From positions 992,001-1,056,000 of the forward strand of contig NZ_JAENZZ010000002.1 of NCBI RefSeq assembly GCF_016612865.1: DNA of 64,000 nt. The letters run 5' to 3'. Numbering within the stretch: position 1 is the first letter of the stretch; every line of letters starts with the position of its first letter. The position numbers were made by a program, and so were the translations under genes. Shown here piece by piece: positions 1 through 12,999 of this stretch. The notes beneath the pieces were generated by a model. The model had not been told where the DNA came from. It worked only from the letters and a program-made list of their open reading frames with translations, and did no database searches. This DNA is from Blastococcus sp. TML/M2B (lineage in GTDB: Bacteria; Actinomycetota; Actinomycetes; Mycobacteriales; Geodermatophilaceae).

Positions 1-1343
1 TCTGGAGCGGCAGGGTCGTCGCCGGTGGGGGCATCGACGACGCGGGTCACGTTCGGCACGTCGGTCGGCACCGGGACGACGCGGCGCTCGACCAGGCCCT
101 CCAGGAGGACGCCAGCTCGCGAAAGCAGCGCGTCGTATCGCTCGTGCGAGAGCACCTCGACGGTGTCGAGCAGCTCGACGCCGGTGTAAGAGCCCCACGG
201 CAGCCGGAGGCCGCGGCCGAGGGTCTGCTCCGTCAGGACGTCGGAGATCGACGGACGCAGGGAGCAGATGACGTAGATGTTCTTGACGTCCCACCCCTCC
301 TTCAGCATGTCGACGCTCACGATGACCCTGACTGGGCTGTCGGGCTCCTCCACGGCCCCCAGCCGCGCCAGGGCGTCGTCGGCAGCCTTGCTGTGGACGG
401 TGAGAACGCGCTGCTCGTAGTCGTGCTCGTACAGGCCGGGGCGGCGAAGCACCGCGGCGACTGCCTGCGCGGAGTCGATGGTGTCGGCCACGACGAACAT
501 GACGGCGTGGATGCGTGGAAGGCCGTGAGCGTCGGAGTACGCGTCAGCCGCCTTCTGCTTCGCGTGCAGGAGGGAGACGCCGTCGCGCAGGCGCACCTCG
601 ACGCTGTCCGCGGTGTCTGTCCGACCGACGAGCACCGGGGTCTTGACGTACTTGTCGGCGATGGCCCTGGCCAGCGGGTAGCGGTAGACGATCTTCGACA
701 GGTCCGACTTCGCCGGCGTGGCCGTCAGCCCGACGAGTGCCAGCGGGTCCAGGTCTCGGATGGCTGCGGAGAACGACGCCGCTTCCTCGGAGTACACGTG
801 GTGCTCGTCGGCGATGACGACCAGGTCTGGCCGCGACTTCAGGTAGGCGTAAAGGTCTTCGCCGAGCCACTCCTGGAACTTGCGGGTGCGGCGCGTGACC
901 TTGTCCGGCTTCGTCAGCGCATGGACGGTGAACACGAAGAGCTTGACGGTGTCCTCGTCGCCCAGCGCGGTGGCCACGTCTCCGGTGTTGAAGTTGTCGA
1001 CCGTGACGATGGTCGGACGGGTGGTCATCCCGCCGAGCACCGACTTCTTGTGTCCCTCGGTGAAGTTGTTGACCGTCTTGTCCAGGATGGTGCGCCCCGG
1101 GGTCACCACAAGGACGTTGCGGACACCGGACTCGGCCAGGTACTCGACGAGACCGGCGGCCAGGTAGGTCTTGCCGACGGCGGTAGCCAGATCGCACACG
1201 GCCTCCGTCGAGGCCCCGGCTGCGGCGTCGATGTGCTTGGCAACGGCGGCCAGAGCCTCGGCGTTGGGCACCCGCAGGTCCAAGCGCGCGGCGACGTCGT
1301 CGATGAGGGCCTGATCGAAGGGCACACTGAGGTGGTCGCTCAT
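1..1343 (-). CDS. res: Type III restriction enzyme Res subunit (DEAD/DEAH-type helicase), 3' end outside window
   Basis: Superfamily 2 helicase/translocase expected to pair with the Mod protein encoded just upstream to form a type III restriction complex. The minus-strand frame opens at ATG 1343 and runs without a stop to the window edge, giving about 447 residues. Visible motifs in order are a Walker A-like 'ATAVGKTYLA', motif II 'ADEHH', motif III 'GLTATPAK' and a motif VI-like 'EQTLGRGLRLPW'. The start overlaps the mod stop in an ATGA arrangement, so the two are translationally coupled. The C-terminal endonuclease domain (PD-ExK in this family) would lie before base 1 and cannot be checked. 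A DEAD-box helicase of another defence system is the alternative, but the Mod neighbour supports type III R-M. Confidence 0.85.
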   Translation of the reverse strand, partial: MSDHLSVPFDQALIDDVAARLDLRVPNAEALAAVAKHIDAAAGASTEAVCDLATAVGKTYLAAGLVEYLAESGVRNVLVVTPGRTILDKTVNNFTEGHKKSVLGGMTTRPTIVTVDNFNTGDVATALGDEDTVKLFVFTVHALTKPDKVTRRTRKFQEWLGEDLYAYLKSRPDLVVIADEHHVYSEEAASFSAAIRDLDPLALVGLTATPAKSDLSKIVYRYPLARAIADKYVKTPVLVGRTDTADSVEVRLRDGVSLLHAKQKAADAYSDAHGLPRIHAVMFVVADTIDSAQAVAAVLRRPGLYEHDYEQRVLTVHSKAADDALARLGAVEEPDSPVRVIVSVDMLKEGWDVKNIYVICSLRPSISDVLTEQTLGRGLRLPWGSYTGVELLDTVEVLSHERYDALLSRAGVLLEGLVERRVVPVPTDVPNVTRVVDAPTGDDPAAP

Positions 1344-2966
1344 GCCGTGTCACCGTCCGGGGTGGAAGTCAGGGAAACCAGCTGGCTGGGGAGGATGCCG
1401 CGGCGCGCGAGGTCGCGCGGCACCTTCCGGACCTTCGAGCCGCCCCTGCGGGCCGCGAGCAGCTCCTCGGCACCGGGCTCGATGGCCTGGGCCACCACCA
1501 GGAGGGTCTCGCGGTCGGCGAGCTTGGAGAGCAGCAACTCGGCCACGCCGGCGGTCAGCATGCCGTCCAGCACCGCGAGCCGGCTGCGACCCCGTCGGCC
1601 GGTGAACGGCCCGTCGGGCTCGTACTCATAGCGCACCTGCGCACAAATGGCGCGAGCGAGCTCACCGCCGACCGCCCAGTCGGCGAGGTACAGATCGCCG
1701 TCCTCGTCGGCCTCGAACATGCTCGAGGCGACGCGTACGAGACGGAACCCGCCGCCGCCCGCCCACGCTGCCGTGCCGGTCACCCCTCCGGCGTCCTCGC
1801 CCTTGACCACCTTCTCCAGGCGCGGCCGCACGAACGTGTCGATGTTGCTCTCCGACAGCTCCACGGTGACGAAGCGGCGGCCCATCTTGTGCGCGACCGC
1901 CGCCGTCGTGCCGGAACCGGCGAAGCAGTCGAGCACGATGTCGCCTGGGTCGGAGGCGATGTGGATGATCTGTTCCATCAGCCGCTCGGGCTTCGGTGTC
2001 GCGAAGATGGCGCTGCGGCCCAGCAGGGAGACGATCTCGCCCTTCGCCTCGCGGTTGTTGCCGACCTCCTCGTGAGCCCAGATGGTGGTCGGCACCAGGT
2101 CGCCGAGCTCGCTGCGGAACCGCTTGCGGAAGGGGAACGTACGGCCGGTCTTGCCCCACCAGAGGCGATCATCGGCCCGGAGCTCCTCGAAGCTCGTGGG
2201 TGACACGCCCCAGTAGCGGCCGGCGCGCGGCGTGAACTTGTCGCCGTGCGGACCCGTCACCTCGTACTTGCCGTCGTTGTAGGGCTTGGCCGCGGTGAGG
2301 TCCGACCGGCGCCAATCACCTCGCGGGTCGTTGTCCGGGTTCCAGAAGTCGGCGTCGCTCTTCGAAGTACGAGCGACCCGGTTGCGGCGCCACGCGGCCT
2401 TGTTGCGGGCGTACACGTGGATGAAGTCGTGGTCGGCGGAGAAGTGCTGCGCGGAGTTGTTCCGGCTGTGGCTCTTCTGCCAGATGACCGTCGCGACGAA
2501 GTTCTGGGCCACCGAAGACCTCGTCGAGCACGCAGCGGGCCCGGTGCTGCTCGACGTCATCGAGGTGGACCCACACGCTGCCGTCGTCGGCGAGCAGCCG
2601 TCGGATCTGGTTCAGCCGGTCGCGCAACATGGTCAGCCACACCGAGTGCTCGACGGCGTCGTCGTAGTGGGCGAACGTCTCCCCGGTGTTGAACGGCGGG
2701 TCGATGTAGACCAGCTTCACCTTGCCGACGTAGGCCTCGGCCAGGTCAGGCAGCGACGTCAGCGACGTCAGGGCATGCAGAGCGTCGCCGTGCACCAGGA
2801 GGTTGCGTTCGGGCTCGTCACCGATGTCGGCTACTGGGGCCAGCAAGCGCACCTCTGAGACACGCCAGTCGGTGGGCTGCACCCACTCGTACCGGTCCGC
2901 CCCGTGTGACAGGAGCCGCATGTCCTTGTTCGACCACGACAGCTCCAGCCGTCGACCACTCGCCAC
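1340..2966 (-). CDS. mod: Type III DNA adenine methyltransferase Mod, reading frame broken near 2510
   Basis: N6-adenine or N4-cytosine DNA methyltransferase of the beta class, the specificity and modification subunit of a type III system. The 5' part (GTG 2966, preceded by a strong AAGGAGG site) carries the catalytic DPPF motif at residues about 89-92. The 3' part, in a different frame, carries the SAM-binding 'FAGSGTT'. DPPF before FxGxG is the beta-class order. Reading continues across the frames at 2508-2511, where one extra base breaks what should be a DEVFG-x-QNF-type segment; removing it gives 541 aa, normal for Mod. The break lies on the 500-bp grid described in the findings, so I take it as a sequence error, though phase variation of mod genes is known and should be kept in mind. 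The stop overlaps the res start. Confidence 0.82.
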
Positions 2967-3438
2967 AGTTCCTCCTTGGTGACGCACGGTACGTGCCTGA
3001 CGGACCGTGCGAGGACCGCTACTGCGGGCATGTCGCCCCTCTGGCCCCGCTCGTACCGCCGGATCCGCGCGCGGCACGTGTTGGACTGCCAGCCGCGCCC
3101 AGTCAGCGACACCCACGTCCAGACGACGTCACTCCACGAGGCATCTTCCCTACCGGTGAGCGCAGTGGTCCGGCCTCGGCCATGTCCGTATGGGGCGGGG
3201 CAGCTGGCGGAAACCCATGCGTGTCCGCACCGACCGCACACCAACTGCCCGACCCCCGAGCGACGGGATCCCGCCGAACTCCCCCAGGGTCCCGAGCTGC
3301 CGCCCGCGACGGCGTGACGCATGTCTCTCGTGCGCCTACGATCATGACGCACCGGTTCCACGACGACCGGTGGCCTCAACCCGCCGTTCACGGACCGTCG
3401 GCGAGGTCGTCGACAGGTCGGGCGGGACGGGGGAGTGC
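2967..3438. other. Divergent intergenic region between mod-res and the sigma-like cassette
   Basis: About 470 bases separate the divergent starts at 2966 (minus) and 3439 (plus), so promoters for both units should lie here. I see no clear -10/-35 pair. A minus-strand open frame through this stretch (ending at 2831, overlapping mod) encodes a CGRCGH zinc-knuckle-like motif and an Arg-rich segment. It could be a small upstream protein or a gene remnant, but it lacks a convincing ribosome-binding site and I do not call it. Confidence 0.4.
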
Positions 3439-4431
3439 GTGAGCGAGTACGACCAGTGGCTGCTGGTCGGTGACGTCGAGGCGGGCCTGCAGCTGCTGCG
3501 CCGGATCGCCGCACAAGCCGTTCGCACCGGCCCCTTCCCGCCGCCGCAGGGCTACGACCGGTGGAGCGACGATGCAGTCGACGAGCTGCTGGTGGAGATG
3601 ATCGCCAAGAAGGGGAGTACCGCGTTCCTGCTCGACGCCCTGGCGTCGGTCGACAACCAGGGCTCCGCGGAGCGGTACCTGCTGGCGACGGTGCAGAACT
3701 TCCAGAAGGATCAGGCGAAGGCCACCGAGCACGGGAAGCTGCGTGAGCGCCTGAAGAACGTGCTCGGCAAGGACTCCCGGTTCATGTTCGTCACCAGCCC
3801 GCACGACGGCTGGCGGCTGGTCGACGGTCCCGCTGAGTGGTGGCAGGGTGACATCGCCGACCTGCACCGCACCGCCCTGCGGGTCCGCGGGGTGTCCATC
3901 CCCTCGTGGAACACCGCCGGCCCCACCGCTCGTCCAGCTCAGCACGCCCTCGCAACCGTGGCCGTCGCGGTGCTCACCGACGCCAACGGCACCGTGCGGG
4001 CCGAGGACCTGGCCCAGATCCTGCTGGAGCGGTTCCGCCACGAGATCGCGCCGGAGACCGTCGGCGAGTTGTTCCTCGCGGACGGCGATGAGCAGATCGG
4101 GCGCACCGACCAGGAGCTCGAGCACGCACTCACGGGCATCAGCGCCGAAGAGCTGTGGGCGCGGCTCACCAGCGAGCAGCGCGCCATCGTGCCCTACCTG
4201 ATCACGCCGGGCGACGCCGCCGCGCAACTCGGCATCGGTCCGAAGGAGGCGGCCGCACGCCGGGCTCAGGTCATCGAGCTGGTTCGGCTGGCGACCGTCG
4301 ACGACCCCCGCGCCGACGAGGTGGTGATGGCCTTGCTCGACATCGCCTCGCTGCCGGCCCGGCCGGCCGGGGAGATGGCTCGTCAGTCCCTGGAAGAACC
4401 GGCCGACACCGAAGGGAGGATGAGCTCGTGA
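3439..4431 (+). CDS. Sigma-70-like regulatory protein of unknown role (first gene of a three-gene cassette)
   Basis: A 330-residue protein with no firm family assignment. Residues about 45-110 look like a sigma-factor region 2 ('LLATVQNFQKDQAK' followed by a basic K/R-rich helix). Residues 240-285 look like a region-4 helix-turn-helix ('LTSEQRAIVPYL' then 'AAQLGIGPKEAAARRAQV'). The GTG start at 3439 is chosen because a GGGGGA site precedes it; the longer open frame upstream lacks one. The last codons overlap the next start in a GTGA arrangement, so it is co-translated with the PemK-like/HTH gene. It probably acts as a transcription regulator or alternative sigma factor for this cassette, or for the divergent R-M genes; this is inference from weak resemblance. 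Confidence 0.55.
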   Translation: MSEYDQWLLVGDVEAGLQLLRRIAAQAVRTGPFPPPQGYDRWSDDAVDELLVEMIAKKGSTAFLLDALASVDNQGSAERYLLATVQNFQKDQAKATEHGKLRERLKNVLGKDSRFMFVTSPHDGWRLVDGPAEWWQGDIADLHRTALRVRGVSIPSWNTAGPTARPAQHALATVAVAVLTDANGTVRAEDLAQILLERFRHEIAPETVGELFLADGDEQIGRTDQELEHALTGISAEELWARLTSEQRAIVPYLITPGDAAAQLGIGPKEAAARRAQVIELVRLATVDDPRADEVVMALLDIASLPARPAGEMARQSLEEPADTEGRMSS

Positions 4432-5309
4432 CCGAAGTTGAGGGCACTGCAGCTGCCCGGTTGCGAGCGGCCCTGACCGCAGCGGCGCTCCCTGCGGCGG
4501 TCCGACGAGCATGGACAGATCAGCCGCCGACACCCGCGCCGGGGCAGATCTGGCGGGCCCGATGGGGATCCACCGCCCAGTTGCTGCTCGTCGTGGACGC
4601 CTCCCGTCGCTCCGTGCGGGCCGTCCCAGTCACCTTGGACGTCGATGCCGCCGACGACAGCGCAGCCATGCTGAGCGCGGAAAGTAGCGATCTCGCCTGC
4701 TCGCTGGTCGTGTGGCTTGCCGACGCCACGTTGCTCCCGTTGCGCGTCATGGACCGCTACCTCGGATCGTTGACTGTCAACCTCGGAGAATTGAACGCCG
4801 CCGACCGCGGCCGGCCAGTGCTCACCGCCGCTGATGACCGCGCCGTACAGCGGGCGAGACGGCAAGACATCCTCGACACCTTCGTCGCTGCCCGCTGGGC
4901 GCCCGAGGGAAGCGGCAACCTCAAGGAGCTCCTGCCCTCATCTGATGTCAAGGGCCTAGCGCAGGTGCTTCAGGTGCCCGAACGCACTGTGGTCGCGCTG
5001 CGCCGGGGCCGGGCGGCGCTCACTTCCGAGCAGGCTGAGCGTCTGGCACCCGTCGTGCACCTGCCGGTGGAGAGGTTGCTGGCGGCCAACCCGCCACTAC
5101 CCGAAGACCTCGTCGCCGATCTGGATCAGCCCGGCTACCGGGCCAAGGTGGTCGCCCTCGCCGAGCGTCGGGGCATCGACGAGATCGAGGCTTGGCTGAC
5201 CGCCGGCTTCGCTGTCGCCGCCGTGGCCCACCGGCAGACCGAAGGCGAGAAACCGGCCTGGACCGACCGCCTCGATCACTACTTCGCGCTGGTGCTCGAT
5301 GAGCCTTGA
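4428..5309 (+). CDS. PemK/MazF-like N-terminal domain plus helix-turn-helix protein
   Basis: A 293-residue protein. Residues about 38-115 ('PGQIWRARWG', then strand-rich 'LLLVVD' and 'VRAVPVTLD') resemble the SH3-like fold of PemK/MazF-type proteins, but I see no convincing catalytic set. Residues about 174-215 form an XRE-like helix-turn-helix ('LAQVLQVPERTVVALRRG'). Its GTG start overlaps the preceding stop, and its own end overlaps the downstream metallopeptidase start by 11 bases, so the three genes are one translation unit. HTH proteins next to ImmA/IrrE-family peptidases are commonly repressors cleaved by the peptidase, and that is the likely relation here. The toxin-like domain call is tentative. 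Confidence 0.55.
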   Translation: MTEVEGTAAARLRAALTAAALPAAVRRAWTDQPPTPAPGQIWRARWGSTAQLLLVVDASRRSVRAVPVTLDVDAADDSAAMLSAESSDLACSLVVWLADATLLPLRVMDRYLGSLTVNLGELNAADRGRPVLTAADDRAVQRARRQDILDTFVAARWAPEGSGNLKELLPSSDVKGLAQVLQVPERTVVALRRGRAALTSEQAERLAPVVHLPVERLLAANPPLPEDLVADLDQPGYRAKVVALAERRGIDEIEAWLTAGFAVAAVAHRQTEGEKPAWTDRLDHYFALVLDEP

Positions 5310-6351
5310 GATCCCCGTGCGCCGCGACACCGTCCGCCGGCAGGCGCAGGCCATGCTCACCCTTCTCGACAGTCTCCTGCCCGGCCGCCGCGACGCGCTC
5401 GGTCGGGATCCGGTTGAGGTCCTGCGCACCTGGCCGGAGGTGGACTACCGGGAGGTGCCGCCGGCCGAGACCGGCAGCCGATGCAGCGTCGCCGGCGCCT
5501 ACTACGGCTCCGAGGATCCACCTCTGCTCACGGTGGCCGACGCCACCAGCCCCGGACGCCGGGCGTTCACCGCGCTGCACGAGCTCGGCCACCACCTGCA
5601 GCAGTCCGATCCCGACCTCGCCGAGACCGTCGACCTGCACGAGGGCGCCGCTGATCAGTTCGAGGACGCCGCCTGCGACGCCTTCGCCGCCGACGTACTC
5701 CTCTCCGAGGAGCTCGTCGCCCGCCATCTCCCGGCGGGCACGCCGACCGCCGACAACATCGTGGCCCTGCGCCGCGGCGCCACGGCCTCCCGCGCCGCCG
5801 TCTGCGTCCGCGCCGCGCAGCACCTGAGCTCACCCGGCCACGTGCTGCTCCTCGACGCGGAGGGCACCGTCCAGTTCGCCGCCTCGCATCTCATGCCCCG
5901 GCCCGGCCGCGGCAGCGACCAGAGCACCGCCGAAGTCATCCGCCAGGCCCTCAGCAATCCGGCCGGACAGGGCCGGTCCCGCGGCCGTACCCGCCTCCGG
6001 TACCGCAACGGCATCCAAGGGGACGAGCTGTACGCCCAGGCGGCACCGATGGACGGCTACCTCGTCGTCGTCGCCGTCACCGACCACGCCCCCTGGGAGA
6101 CCGGGTTCACCCTGCCGATCGCGCAGACCGGGCCGACGGCCGCCTGGCGGATCTGCGTCCACTCCGAGTGCGGCGAGGACTTCCAGACCTTCGAGGGCCC
6201 CTGCGCTCGTTGTGGTCACCACACCTGCACGAAGTGCAGCCGCTGCGCCTGCGCCCCGGTGGTGAAGGAGCGGGACTGCACCCGCTGCGGCCTCCGCCTC
6301 CCGGCACGGCTCTTCGACGGCGACGCCGACCGCTGCCGCGACTGCTCCTGA
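5299..6351 (+). CDS. ImmA/IrrE-type zinc metallopeptidase with C-terminal cysteine-rich zinc domain
   Basis: A 350-residue protein. The HELGHH motif at residues 94-99 is the HExxH zinc site of ImmA/IrrE peptidases, with acidic candidates for the third ligand in the following 'EDAACDAF' helix. After a middle domain of unknown type (about 145-275), the last 65 residues hold more than ten cysteines in CxxC pairs (for example 'CARCGHHTCTKCSRCAC' and 'CTRCGLRLPARL'), which suggests two or more zinc ribbons, possibly binding nucleic acid. IrrE-family members cleave an HTH repressor on stress; the upstream HTH protein is the natural substrate. A peptidase with this zinc tail could be the sensor that activates the cassette. 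Start ATG 5299 overlaps the upstream stop. Confidence 0.75.
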   Translation: MSLEIPVRRDTVRRQAQAMLTLLDSLLPGRRDALGRDPVEVLRTWPEVDYREVPPAETGSRCSVAGAYYGSEDPPLLTVADATSPGRRAFTALHELGHHLQQSDPDLAETVDLHEGAADQFEDAACDAFAADVLLSEELVARHLPAGTPTADNIVALRRGATASRAAVCVRAAQHLSSPGHVLLLDAEGTVQFAASHLMPRPGRGSDQSTAEVIRQALSNPAGQGRSRGRTRLRYRNGIQGDELYAQAAPMDGYLVVVAVTDHAPWETGFTLPIAQTGPTAAWRICVHSECGEDFQTFEGPCARCGHHTCTKCSRCACAPVVKERDCTRCGLRLPARLFDGDADRCRDCS

Positions 6352-6483
6352 ACTTCCTGTCCTCGATCGCCCTCTTCTGCCGAGATGGCTCGTCTGTCCC
6401 AGGTGAGGCCCCACGGCCCACCGCCGCGCAGCACCGACCTGCGCGGACGGACAGGACAGTCGGCACGAGAGGACACACAACTG

Positions 6484-7524
6484 ATGACTGACAAGCCCCC
6501 CACCATGGAGCAGCTGCTCACCCAGGCCCGCGGCCGCATCCAGATCACCGAGGAGGAGATCAAGGAGGCCCGCCGGCGCCGCGAGCTCATCGCCAGCGCG
6601 CTGCGCAAGGCGTTCCCCGGCTCCCGGGTCTACTTCAACGGCAGCCTCGCCCACGGCGACGCCCTCACCCCGCTGACGGACATCGACCTCGGCATCGTCA
6701 TCGCCGAGGCCAAGGACACCCACGGCCCCGGCAAGAAGGGTCCGCGCGACCTGATGGACCGCGCCGCCGAAGCCATCCGTGACGCGCTCGGCGAGGAGTT
6801 CCCCAAGCTCACCGTGACCGTCGAAGGCTGCACCCGTGCGGTGCTCGTCCGCTTCGGCGACCCCGTCCACGCCGGCGAGAAGGACTTCACCGCCGACGTC
6901 ATCTGCGCCATCGACAATGCGCGCGCCCCGGGCCTGTCCATCCCGAAGGCGCCCGGTTGGTCCCGCTCGGACCCCGAGACGCACACCCGGCTCGTGCGCC
7001 AGGCGATCGAGGACACCCGCGTCGCGTTCGCGCACATCGTCCGCCTGCTCAAGCACTGGGACCGCAGCAACGGCATGCCCCTGGTCAGCTGGAACATCAA
7101 GGCCCTGGCGCTGGGCTGCATCACCGCCCCCACGACGCACCTGGCCGGCCTGTCGAAGTGGTTCACCCACGCCGCCGACGAGCTGGACAAGGGCCTCACC
7201 GAGGACCCGGCGCGGGTCGCCGAGAAGCCGATCAAGCTGGGCAAGGACTGGACGCGCACCCAGGTCGTCACCGCCCTCCGCGACGCCGGCAAGCGCCTCG
7301 ACGAGGCGGCCCGCCTTGAGCGCGACGGCTACCCCCTGCTCGCCCACGACGAGCTGGCCAAGCTCTTCAACGACGAGGAGATGCTGCCGCGCCCGGACCA
7401 GGACGCTGTACGGGCCGAGGAAGCGCGCCGCATCCAGCGCGGCAGCCGCAACGGTGCCCCCACCACCGGCACCGGTGCCGGTGCCAGCCGCCCCCGGGTC
7501 CCGGTCCGGAGTTGGGCCCCGTGA
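6484..7524 (+). CDS. CBASS-type cGAS/DncV-like nucleotidyltransferase (CD-NTase)
   Basis: A 346-residue enzyme expected to make a cyclic oligonucleotide second messenger on phage infection. It has the polymerase-beta-like signature: 'GSLAHGDALTPLTDIDLG' gives G53-S54 and the metal-binding pair D66/D68, and D138 in 'FTADVI' is the likely third carboxylate. The C-terminal 30 residues are a flexible Gly/Pro/Arg tail, as expected for a CD-NTase whose C-terminus is joined to targets by an E2-type partner (inference). ATG 6484 is chosen over the longer frame because an AGAGGA-type site lies about ten bases upstream. It is followed immediately, in a GTGA overlap, by the E2-like gene. A plain nucleotidyltransferase of a toxin-antitoxin pair is the alternative, less likely given its neighbours. 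Confidence 0.85.
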   Translation: MTDKPPTMEQLLTQARGRIQITEEEIKEARRRRELIASALRKAFPGSRVYFNGSLAHGDALTPLTDIDLGIVIAEAKDTHGPGKKGPRDLMDRAAEAIRDALGEEFPKLTVTVEGCTRAVLVRFGDPVHAGEKDFTADVICAIDNARAPGLSIPKAPGWSRSDPETHTRLVRQAIEDTRVAFAHIVRLLKHWDRSNGMPLVSWNIKALALGCITAPTTHLAGLSKWFTHAADELDKGLTEDPARVAEKPIKLGKDWTRTQVVTALRDAGKRLDEAARLERDGYPLLAHDELAKLFNDEEMLPRPDQDAVRAEEARRIQRGSRNGAPTTGTGAGASRPRVPVRSWAP

Positions 7525-8030
7525 CCGCCTCCATCGACGGGCTGCTGTGGACCCAGCAGCCCGACGTCACGTGGTACGGCCTGCAGCCGTGGTGGCAGCG
7601 ATGGGTGGAGGCCGGCGCCCGTGCTGAGCACGGCGCTGACCTTCGGCTGGGCCTCGACCTCGACCGGATCACCTACCGCGTGCCGATCGAGGTCCGGGGC
7701 CGCCGGGACCCCGTCGACCTCCGGATCGAGTTCCACCGGTGGCCCCGGTATGACTGCTACGACCTCCCGCCGGAGGAGTACCCCCGGGTGTTCGCCGCTC
7801 CGGGGGCGGCCTCCCCGCACCGGATGCCCACCGACGACGCGCTCTGCCTCTACTTCCCCGACTCCCCGCCGTGGCGCCGGTGGCGGCCGGTCGACGGCCT
7901 GCTCGCGCTGATCGACCTGGCGCGCGACCACGTCTTCTTCGAGGACTACTGGCGCGCCACGGGCGGTCACCGCGGAGGCACCTGGCTGGGTGACGAGGCG
8001 CCGCACGGTTTCCCGGCGGTGGCCGCGTGA
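7521..8030 (+). CDS. Stand-alone E2-like ubiquitin-conjugating-fold protein of a short type II CBASS
   Basis: A 169-residue protein with the bacterial E2 pattern: a beta-rich N-terminus, a Pro-rich turn ('LPPEEYPRVF'), then H100 and the candidate catalytic cysteine C109 in 'DALCLYFP', and a C-terminal helix-turn segment with 'YWRATG' and 'WLGDEAPHG', typical of CBASS E2 proteins. No E1 or JAB deconjugase gene lies nearby, so this would be the E2-only (short) type II arrangement, in which the E2 is thought to modify the CD-NTase C-terminus and prime it. The GTG start overlaps the CD-NTase stop and its own stop overlaps the next start, which indicates tight co-translation. The family call rests on motif recognition only. 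Confidence 0.78.
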   Translation: MTASIDGLLWTQQPDVTWYGLQPWWQRWVEAGARAEHGADLRLGLDLDRITYRVPIEVRGRRDPVDLRIEFHRWPRYDCYDLPPEEYPRVFAAPGAASPHRMPTDDALCLYFPDSPPWRRWRPVDGLLALIDLARDHVFFEDYWRATGGHRGGTWLGDEAPHGFPAVAA

Positions 8031-8620
8031 TCCCCGAGCTCGTCGCCGCCGCGGTGCGCGCGACCGGCACCGTCGCCGCCCGAACCGCATGCGCACCCGT
8101 AGAACAGCCCGACCCCGGGTTCTGGTCCGACATCGACGCCGGCAACCTCCTCGGCGCCCTCGCGACGGTGATCGTCGGCATCGTCGCCGCCGTCGTCGCG
8201 GTCAACGCCTACAAGACCCAGCAGCGGGAGGCCCGCCGGCAGGAGAAGGCGAAGTTCTACGCCGAGGCGGTGCGCGCGGTCGAGGACTACATGGAGGCGC
8301 CGTACCGCATCCTGCGGAAGGACGGCTCAGCCGAAGCCCGCCGGGAGATCACCCAGCACATCAGCGACGTGAAGTCACGGATCAGCTTCTACACCGGCTG
8401 GATGGAGATCCATGGGACCACCGCGGTGTGCAGCGCCTACCGGGACTTCGTCGCCGCCTCTCAACGGGAAGCCGGCCCGCAGATGACCGCGGCCTGGAGC
8501 GCCAAGCCAGTCAAGAAGGACAAGGACGTGCCGCTGCGCACCGCACCGCTGCCCCGCACCGCCACCGACGCCGCACGGGACACGCTCGTGACCGCCATGC
8601 ACGACGACCTCAACCGGTAG
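8027..8620 (+). CDS. Single-TM protein, candidate CBASS effector
   Basis: A 197-residue protein with one clear membrane helix at residues 40-61 ('LLGALATVIVGIVAAVVAVN'), a basic stop-transfer segment (K63 to R71), and a soluble, mostly helical C-terminal domain of about 130 residues. I recognise no enzymatic motif. In CBASS operons the remaining gene is normally the cell-killing effector, often a membrane protein with two or four TM segments. Only one TM is visible here, although a weakly hydrophobic N-terminus (residues 1-22) could be a second. It starts at a GTG overlapping the E2 stop. Role as effector is inferred from position; it could instead be a membrane anchor or sensor. Confidence 0.6.
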   Translation: MIPELVAAAVRATGTVAARTACAPVEQPDPGFWSDIDAGNLLGALATVIVGIVAAVVAVNAYKTQQREARRQEKAKFYAEAVRAVEDYMEAPYRILRKDGSAEARREITQHISDVKSRISFYTGWMEIHGTTAVCSAYRDFVAASQREAGPQMTAAWSAKPVKKDKDVPLRTAPLPRTATDAARDTLVTAMHDDLNR

Positions 8621-8703
8621 CGAACTGGCCAGCTCGTAGACAGCCGGCCGGGCGGACAGCGCCGATCGCGACCAGCCCCCCGGAACGTCCACGTCGGGGT
8701 CGC

Positions 8704-9828
8704 ATGTTGAATCCGGCGGTGAGCTCCTCTCCGCACGACGCCGCAGCCCACCCCGAACCACCCAGGAGAGGCCGCCTGCAGAAGGCCCCCCGGACATCCT
8801 TCGTGGAGATGGTCAGGGGACGGCTATCGGCGACCTGGTGGCCCAGCGCCGCGCCGCCCGTCAACGCCGACGACCTCTACGCCTCCGCGCAGCGCCACGC
8901 CGTGCGGGCGTTCCGCGCGCGGGCCAACGACGACCAGGACGACGCGGCCCTGCAGTTCGGCGTGATGCTCGAGCACCTGGCGAAGGCCTACCTCGTCGGA
9001 CTCCATCCGACGCTGGTGCTCGAAAGGAACTTCGACTTCCCGACGCTCCTCCGCCTCGCCGGTCAGGGCCAGCGTGTCAAGCCCGGGCACGTACTCAAGA
9101 CGATCGGCCTACGCGGTGCCCTCGAGCGCTTTGGCGAGATGGAGGCAGCCGGCGCGCCAGGGGCCGGCAAGAAGCACGCGGACCGGTTCGAACTGCTGCT
9201 GCAGGCACGCGACGGCGTCGCGCACATCGGGGCCGCCGGCACCGCCGCCGACACGGTCGCCGAACTCGCCGTGCGCGGCGCCGTGGAGATCCTGGACAAG
9301 ATCAACCGACCCCACGACATGTTCTTCGGCGACTGGTCTGCACCCGCCCGGGCACTGCTCGATGAGCACGCGACGAAGGTTCATCAGCTCGTCCAGCTCC
9401 GGTTGTCGCAGGCCCGAGACGCCTTCACCCGGCGCTTCAGCGGACTCGACAAGCCGGACCGCGACGCCCAGCTCATCGCCCTCGACGTCCGCCCCGCCAC
9501 CGTCGCCGACGACACCAAGCTCGCCGTCACCTGCCCCGCCTGCAGCCAGCACGGCGTCCTCACCGGCACCGACGACCTCGACTTCGAGGCCGACTGGGAC
9601 GTCGAAGACGGTGACTCGTTCGTCAGCGGGGTCATCTCCACCGTGATCCTCCGCGCCGACGCCTTTACCTGCCCCGTCTGCGGCCTCCGGCTGACCGGCC
9701 GGGAGCAGCTCCTCGACGCCGGCCTGGACACTGTCGTCGACCTCCGCGCGGCGACCCAGGAGGACCTTGAGGCCTACGAGTCCAAGCGTCACGCCGACGC
9801 GTGGGAGCGCGAACCCGACCACGCCTGA
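8704..9828 (+). CDS. HEPN-like protein with C-terminal zinc ribbon
   Basis: A 374-residue protein. Residues about 55-200 are helical and contain R169-D-G-V-A-H174, matching the R-x4-6-H motif of HEPN domains, many of which are RNases in defence or toxin-antitoxin modules. A candidate zinc ribbon lies near the C-terminus, with 'CPAC' and 'CPVC' pairs about 45 residues apart. It follows the CBASS-like genes by 83 bases on the same strand, so it may be co-transcribed or form its own unit. The ATG at 8704 gives the longest plausible protein; ATG 8809 is an alternative start because the first 35 residues look disordered and no strong ribosome-binding site precedes 8704. Function unproven. Confidence 0.65.
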   Translation: MLNPAVSSSPHDAAAHPEPPRRGRLQKAPRTSFVEMVRGRLSATWWPSAAPPVNADDLYASAQRHAVRAFRARANDDQDDAALQFGVMLEHLAKAYLVGLHPTLVLERNFDFPTLLRLAGQGQRVKPGHVLKTIGLRGALERFGEMEAAGAPGAGKKHADRFELLLQARDGVAHIGAAGTAADTVAELAVRGAVEILDKINRPHDMFFGDWSAPARALLDEHATKVHQLVQLRLSQARDAFTRRFSGLDKPDRDAQLIALDVRPATVADDTKLAVTCPACSQHGVLTGTDDLDFEADWDVEDGDSFVSGVISTVILRADAFTCPVCGLRLTGREQLLDAGLDTVVDLRAATQEDLEAYESKRHADAWEREPDHA

Positions 9829-9967
9829 CCCACCCGAGGGCGCCGCCAACCCCGTAACCGCATACCGGGGAGTCTTTGTAGCCACCGGCGCCCTACAAGC
9901 CGTTGTCCTCGACGCCTATGCCCGGGGAACACCTCACCGGCGTTCTCCCCTTCTGCCTCAGAAGCGG

Positions 9968-10006
9968 CCAGCGGCCCGGCCCCTTGAGAAGGGACCGGGC
10001 CGCTGG
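9968..10006. terminator. Large near-perfect palindrome, possible bidirectional terminator
   Basis: An 18-base stem (starting CCAGCGGCCC) with one mismatch and a three-base loop. There is no U-tract on either side, so it may instead be a repetitive palindrome. It lies between the convergent ends of the HEPN gene and nrdJ. Confidence 0.5.
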
Positions 10007-10025
10007 ACGGGGTCGAGCTAGCCGC

Positions 10026-10105
10026 GGAAATGTCTCGCTGACCGAACCCGGGACAATGCTGACCGAACTCCGGACATTGCTGACCGCGCCAGCGCGGACA
10101 TTTCC
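10026..10105. repeat. 80-bp element: three 21-bp direct repeats inside 9-bp inverted ends
   Basis: The ends GGAAATGTC (10026-10034) and GACATTTCC (10097-10105) are exact inverted repeats. Inside, GCTGACCG recurs at 10037, 10058 and 10079, a 21-bp period, with partly conserved spacers. Repeated units at a terminus resemble ends of insertion sequences such as the IS21 family, so this may be a solo IS end or a small non-autonomous element. It marks the junction between the accessory block and nrdJ. Confidence 0.6.
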
Positions 10106-10117
10106 TGGCCGTTCACA

Positions 10118-12999
<2,882 letters not shown>

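Follow-up and report, generated by a model that had tools for sequence, protein, structure and literature searches.

A HEPN-zinc-ribbon gene beside a CBASS operon in Blastococcus is probably a separate, mobile defence module

The gene directly following a CBASS operon in Blastococcus sp. TML/M2B is probably a defence module complete in a single gene, which spreads by horizontal transfer and encodes a predicted HEPN ribonuclease. It lies in the window analysed here, a stretch of 64,000 nucleotides of contig NZ_JAENZZ010000002.1, and its features are collected in Table 1. Within this one genome it has the appearance of a further gene of the CBASS operon, but its homologues elsewhere show it to be a separate module, so linkage in a single genome is misleading. 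The homologues outline a HEPN family in Actinomycetota and Pseudomonadota with two arrangements, either solo or paired with a dioxygenase gene.

Table 1. Features of the HEPN-zinc-ribbon gene and its surroundings (window coordinates).
Feature	Position	Strand	Basis or remark
CapP-like protease, CD-NTase, E2 and 1TM effector of CBASS	5299..8620	+	context, outside the HEPN unit
Upstream stretch, likely the gene's own 5' region	8701..8802	+	conserved with the gene in locus L006, without coding constraint
HEPN + C-terminal zinc-ribbon gene, most likely extent	8803..9828	+	GTG start
HEPN domain, helical, model residues 1-153	8854..9312	+	AF2 model; VIA-align to 2hsb
E-x3-K motif, second HEPN helix	8971..8985	+	E invariant, K at least 90% in 29 members
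RDGVAH (Rx4H), predicted RNase motif	9208..9225	+	family alignments
C-terminal domain, putative zinc ribbon; a long beta hairpin separates its two cysteine pairs	9439..9825	+	AF2 model
CPAC, first cysteine pair	9532..9543	+	family alignments
CPVC, second cysteine pair	9670..9681	+	family alignments

Results and discussion

Gene start and coding constraint

The open reading frame runs from 8704 to 9828 on the + strand (374 aa). Its closest relative was found at locus L006 in Geodermatophilaceae bacterium URHA0031, with a protein 86% identical to the window protein. For this one sequence pair, dN/dS was 1.05 over residues 3–33 (numbered from 8704) and 0.19 over residues 34–372, with 0.09 in the HEPN part (residues 52–215) and 0.26 over residues 216–335. 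Third-position bias was absent from residues 3–33, and the counterpart of ATG 8704 was out of frame in L006. A start at ATG 8704 was rejected, as the first ~33 codons look non-coding. Since coding constraint begins only at about residue 34 and ATG 8704 has no in-frame counterpart in L006, the gene probably starts at GTG 8803. Judged by these substitution rates, the gene is under purifying selection. The first-pass annotation had placed it 83 bases behind the CBASS-like operon on the same strand; the strand holds, whereas the gap from the end of the CBASS membrane gene (8620) to the likely start grows to 182 bases. Sigma-70 promoter-like or intrinsic terminator-like matches were not found in 8500–10150, which carries little weight in a high-GC actinobacterium.

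Predicted fold and conserved motifs

Two residue numberings are used below: R169 and H174, counted from 8704, correspond to R136 and H141, counted from 8803. In the motif R169-x4-H174 (RDGVAH), the histidine was present in 37 of 37 aligned members and the arginine in 36, the exception being L012, which has glutamine. The paired CPxC motifs (CPAC at 277–280 and CPVC at 323–326, numbered from 8704) recurred as a CxxC pair in 36 of the 37 members and were missing from the truncated L057. In a 29-member alignment (numbered from 8803), E57 and H141 were invariant, and K61, R136 and the four cysteines were each at least 90% conserved, with merely 16–30% identity to the window protein in 26 of the 28 other rows. 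Because the members were collected by BLAST and a family profile, part of this conservation arises by construction. Passages of PMC3710099 characterise HEPN domains by Rx4-6H with a polar residue after the arginine and by E-x3-[KR]; RDGVAH has the former pattern, and the latter is present as the invariant glutamate and the lysine four residues on.

The AlphaFold2 model of the window protein, built from 20 input sequences, reached a pLDDT of 89 and a pTM of 0.80. Its best VIA-align match was 2hsb (AF0298; Z 13.1, 3.2 A, 121 residues), followed by 1ufb (12.0), a sacsin HEPN domain (11.9) and an archaeal HEPN homologue (11.5); Csm6 (9.2), MntA-HepT (8.7) and AbiV (7.4) were also matched, and the first unrelated fold appeared at Z 5.1. 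Since Z values below about 13 may reflect a common helical arrangement by chance, we place weight on the make-up of the list and on the motifs. Among the best 24 entries, 17 were titled HEPN, Csm6, AbiV or MntA-HepT, and the other seven were 1ufb, 2q00 and 3mfn (uncharacterised by title), 5yep, 7bxo and two ANT(4') entries. We take 5yep and 7bxo to be toxin–antitoxin pairs of the HEPN kind. The C-terminal domain of ANT(4') is counted as HEPN in a passage of PMC3710099. Foldseek gave no match at E ≤ 0.001 for the model, with Csm6, AbiV and 2hsb within the first five rows, and a comparison with the sequences of solved structures gave weak matches only, Csm6 being fourth (E 0.98).

Motif and predicted fold together show the N-terminal domain to be HEPN, so far as a structural model can. 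This bears out the HEPN-type fold proposed in the first-pass annotation, and the conserved motifs together with the structural comparisons also speak for the putative zinc ribbon proposed with it. Taken alone, the C-terminal domain had no confident structural relative (best Z 3.3); against RNA polymerase and ribosomal proteins it scored Z 2.0–2.4.

Comparison with known families

No Pfam, NCBIfam or PADLOC model matched the window protein above chance. In its predicted fold, in an Rx4H motif whose arginine is followed by a polar residue and in E-x3-K, the protein agrees with the HEPN superfamily (PF05168 and relatives; AF0298, HepT, Csm6, AbiV). It differs in that no Pfam HEPN model matches it, that its C-terminus forms a putative zinc ribbon with a long hairpin and that no antitoxin gene was recognised beside it. 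Support at the sequence level is indirect. PF05168 weakly matched 8 of 29 family members at E ≤ 0.1 (best 0.003), and four of these eight, viewed singly, lay below the PF05168 cut-off. Two distant relatives reached via the family profile, L060 and L062, matched the PADLOC model DUF3644 (9e-13 and 2e-23, respectively) and also HEC-08 (1.9e-22) and PDC-S64 (1.9e-16), none of which matches the window protein. These two relatives have more CxxC pairs, in another arrangement than in the window protein. DUF3644 is a HEPN family in PMC3710099, a passage of which describes DUF3644/EC042_2821-type HEPN proteins with wHTH, REase and zinc ribbon domains. A literature search, in which coverage of subscription journals and bioRxiv was limited so that absence is unproven, found no paper on the HEPN-zinc-ribbon family or on a HEPN-TauD pair.

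Distribution

Homologues were present in 5 of 60 genomes of relatives and, in a class-wide profile search, in 21 of 394 genomes, the window's own genome being included in both counts. One further homologue, that of L006, came from a search of genome contigs, and 32 plasmid records, mostly from Streptomyces, also held homologues. Phage records contained no match to the window protein or to its relative at L046; among viral contigs, 45 stretches matched the single pattern used and none was confirmed.

Relation to the neighbouring CBASS

The first-pass annotation had considered the gene as a possible fourth component of the CBASS. Such a component or accessory effector would be triggered by the cyclic nucleotide of the system, and its same strand and close spacing speak for it. 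The linkage is not conserved. DNA identity with L006 (87%) covers window 8701–9845, that is, the HEPN gene and about 100 bases of its 5' region and nothing of the CBASS, so it begins after the CBASS genes. The proteins of the window's CBASS had no tblastn match in 31 homologue loci (11 + 20), a search that covered CBASS of the window's own type, and a CD-NTase profile found nothing at E ≤ 0.01 in 39 homologue loci, among which L060 and L061 are nearly identical and some are cut by contig ends. A survey of this kind for homologues beside CD-NTase or E2 genes, as proposed with the annotation, thus found no such linkage.

The reciprocal comparison gave the same picture. The four best related CD-NTase loci outside the window's genome (L104–L107) held relatives of the CD-NTase, E2 and 1TM genes, and L106 and L107 additionally held relatives of the protease and of the two genes before it. 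A HEPN relative was found by tblastn in none of the four, of which L106 extends only some 1.5 kb past its 1TM gene; the family profile gave a single chance-level match, on the other strand of L107 (E 0.035). The candidate role as a component of CBASS of the window's own type was rejected on these grounds, being contradicted from both sides, and we regard it as highly improbable.

The CBASS operon itself extends over 3190–8620 and includes, upstream, two additional genes and an M78/CapP-like protease that carries a C-terminal cysteine cluster of its own; relatives of all six operon genes occur in L106 and L107. A second, distant CD-NTase-like match lies elsewhere in the window's genome (G000:C1:880020-880862; 27%, E 2e-10).

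Genomic setting of the gene and its homologues

Similarity to all 10 fetched congeners (of 22) stops at window 10115–10118, on the 3' side of nrdJ. The content of the congeners beyond this edge varies, which makes it a variable site in the genus. Some blocks beyond the edge are shared, namely between L093 and L094 and between L097 and both L098 and L102, and congener G022 (L095) matches window 124–2948, the methyltransferase region, at 68–69%. Two 21-base near-repeats (86%) lie at 10037–10078, close to where the variable region ends on its right side. On the – strand at 1340–3116 there is a DNA methyltransferase-like gene, seemingly split over two frames that overlap at 2316–2560.

Solo homologues sit in mobile or variable DNA, some of them beside other defence systems. 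The only neighbours shared among the 17 solo loci were an annotated IS5 transposase, an annotated integrase, a relaxase and a transposase recognised by eye, and two short matches; no conserved partner or antitoxin was found in these 17 loci. At L006, a Pycsar cyclase (2.6e-95) and PycTM (8e-43) lie about 3 kb upstream of the HEPN gene, with two genes between. Inspection by eye placed Lamassu-like genes next to L058 and a SIR2-like gene next to L052, and L050 was surrounded by prophage-like genes. At L013, the HEPN gene is preceded by an ATPase that matches the mad3 (2.6e-21) and LmuB (7.8e-20) models, which is weak evidence because mad3 models match control proteins too (1.2e-26). Many homologue loci had no recognised defence neighbour. 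A different protein beside the Pycsar genes (L006:3361-4698) has its own R-H-R-V-V-H motif and matched no PADLOC model at 0.01.

At a threshold of 1e-10, 122 neighbour proteins from 23 homologue loci, a mixture of both family branches, matched 54 PADLOC models (25 of them listed), compared with 15 models matched by 116 control proteins from 20 loci; these figures count models, not proteins or loci. Among the matches listed, type II restriction enzymes and methyltransferases, Lamassu, IetA, SIR2 and PycC were found in the neighbour set only, while mad2 and mad3 models matched both sets alike. We take these figures as suggestive of a defence setting. That the gene might be an independent defence module had been the other proposal of the first-pass annotation, and it fits the presence of defence genes and mobile elements around some of the loci, from which a role in defence may be presumed.

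Proposed mechanism and alternative explanations

By analogy with other HEPN RNases, two HEPN domains would pair as a homodimer, in which the Rx4H motifs and the E-x3-K helix may form a metal-independent RNase site. The C-terminal putative zinc ribbon with its long beta hairpin might bind nucleic acid or a phage product and would keep the RNase off until infection. The active enzyme would then cut RNA, so that growth stops before the phage spreads. As far as the linkage data indicate, the module would act independently of the second messenger of the adjacent CBASS. The lack of a conserved partner or antitoxin in the solo group weighs against this reading.

The same neighbourhoods might instead belong to an addiction-type toxin that mainly serves the maintenance of mobile elements, its antitoxin being encoded by a distant gene, transcribed as an RNA from the conserved stretch upstream, or formed by its own C-terminal domain. 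Homologues are indeed numerous on plasmids (32 records and, for the L012 protein, 26 records) and lie near integrases, transposases and relaxase-like genes, but a conserved antitoxin-like partner is missing from the solo group and part of the loci have defence neighbours, and we consider such a toxin unlikely. The ribonuclease activity itself might be doubted, as some HEPN families are not considered nucleases in a passage of PMC3710099, and the protein could then be a nucleic-acid-binding regulator with a HEPN fold. According to the same passage, however, such families have wholly or partly lost Rx4-6H, which is kept here in 36 of 37 members, so this explanation appears improbable as well. 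A mobile one-gene defence module with a HEPN ribonuclease thus remains our preferred reading.

Dioxygenase-paired branch of the family

In one branch of the family, the HEPN-zinc gene directly follows a gene for a TauD/TfdA dioxygenase. This was the case in all nine plasmid loci opened (L012 and eight, L128–L135, of the 26 records found with its protein), with either an overlap of 4–8 bases or 1–2 bases between the two genes. With a profile built from these dioxygenases, seven genome loci (L015, L016 and L045–L049) also proved to have the gene immediately before the HEPN-zinc gene, and all 10 dioxygenases tested scored above the cut-off of Pfam TauD. The profile had no match in the 64 kb window at E ≤ 1. 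The partner was thus directly upstream in 16 of 17 testable branch members, from which L014 and L055 were left out as their contigs end upstream. The gene at L053, the exception, is broken; its N-terminal part clusters with L014, L049 and L055, and the locus contains no dioxygenase.

In a tree of 34 rows with the tails removed, the 16 partnered members and L014 were placed on one side of a branch with 100/100 support, and the window protein and 16 other solo members on the opposite side, the position of the root not being fixed. Both groups share domain order and motifs and fall into one alignment and tree, whereas members of the paired branch have a dioxygenase gene next to them and mostly end in YGND, neither of which holds for the window protein. 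A YGND ending was present in 13 of the 16 partnered proteins and in none of the 20 solo ones, a count from which L014 (which also ends in YGND) was excluded. The tail changed twice and the partner once on the tree, so their association rests on very few events.

Our guess is that the dioxygenase acts on the YGND tail of its HEPN partner. A wider reading would make the window protein a solo member of a HEPN-zinc-ribbon defence family in whose other branch the Fe(II)/2-oxoglutarate-dependent TauD/TfdA dioxygenase governs the HEPN RNase, perhaps through oxidation of the Tyr-Gly-Asn-Asp tail. Oxygen, iron or 2-oxoglutarate would then gate RNA cleavage, and solo members would use their own C-terminal domain instead. 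We put this forward as a possibility, though a doubtful one. If the pair works as proposed, an RNase would be under the control of an oxygenase, and the pairing suggests a possible route for switching RNA-cutting enzymes on or off. The HEPN proteins were annotated as hypothetical in 26 of the 26 records found with the L012 protein and in 19 of the 20 records listed among the 32 plasmid records, the remaining one being unannotated.
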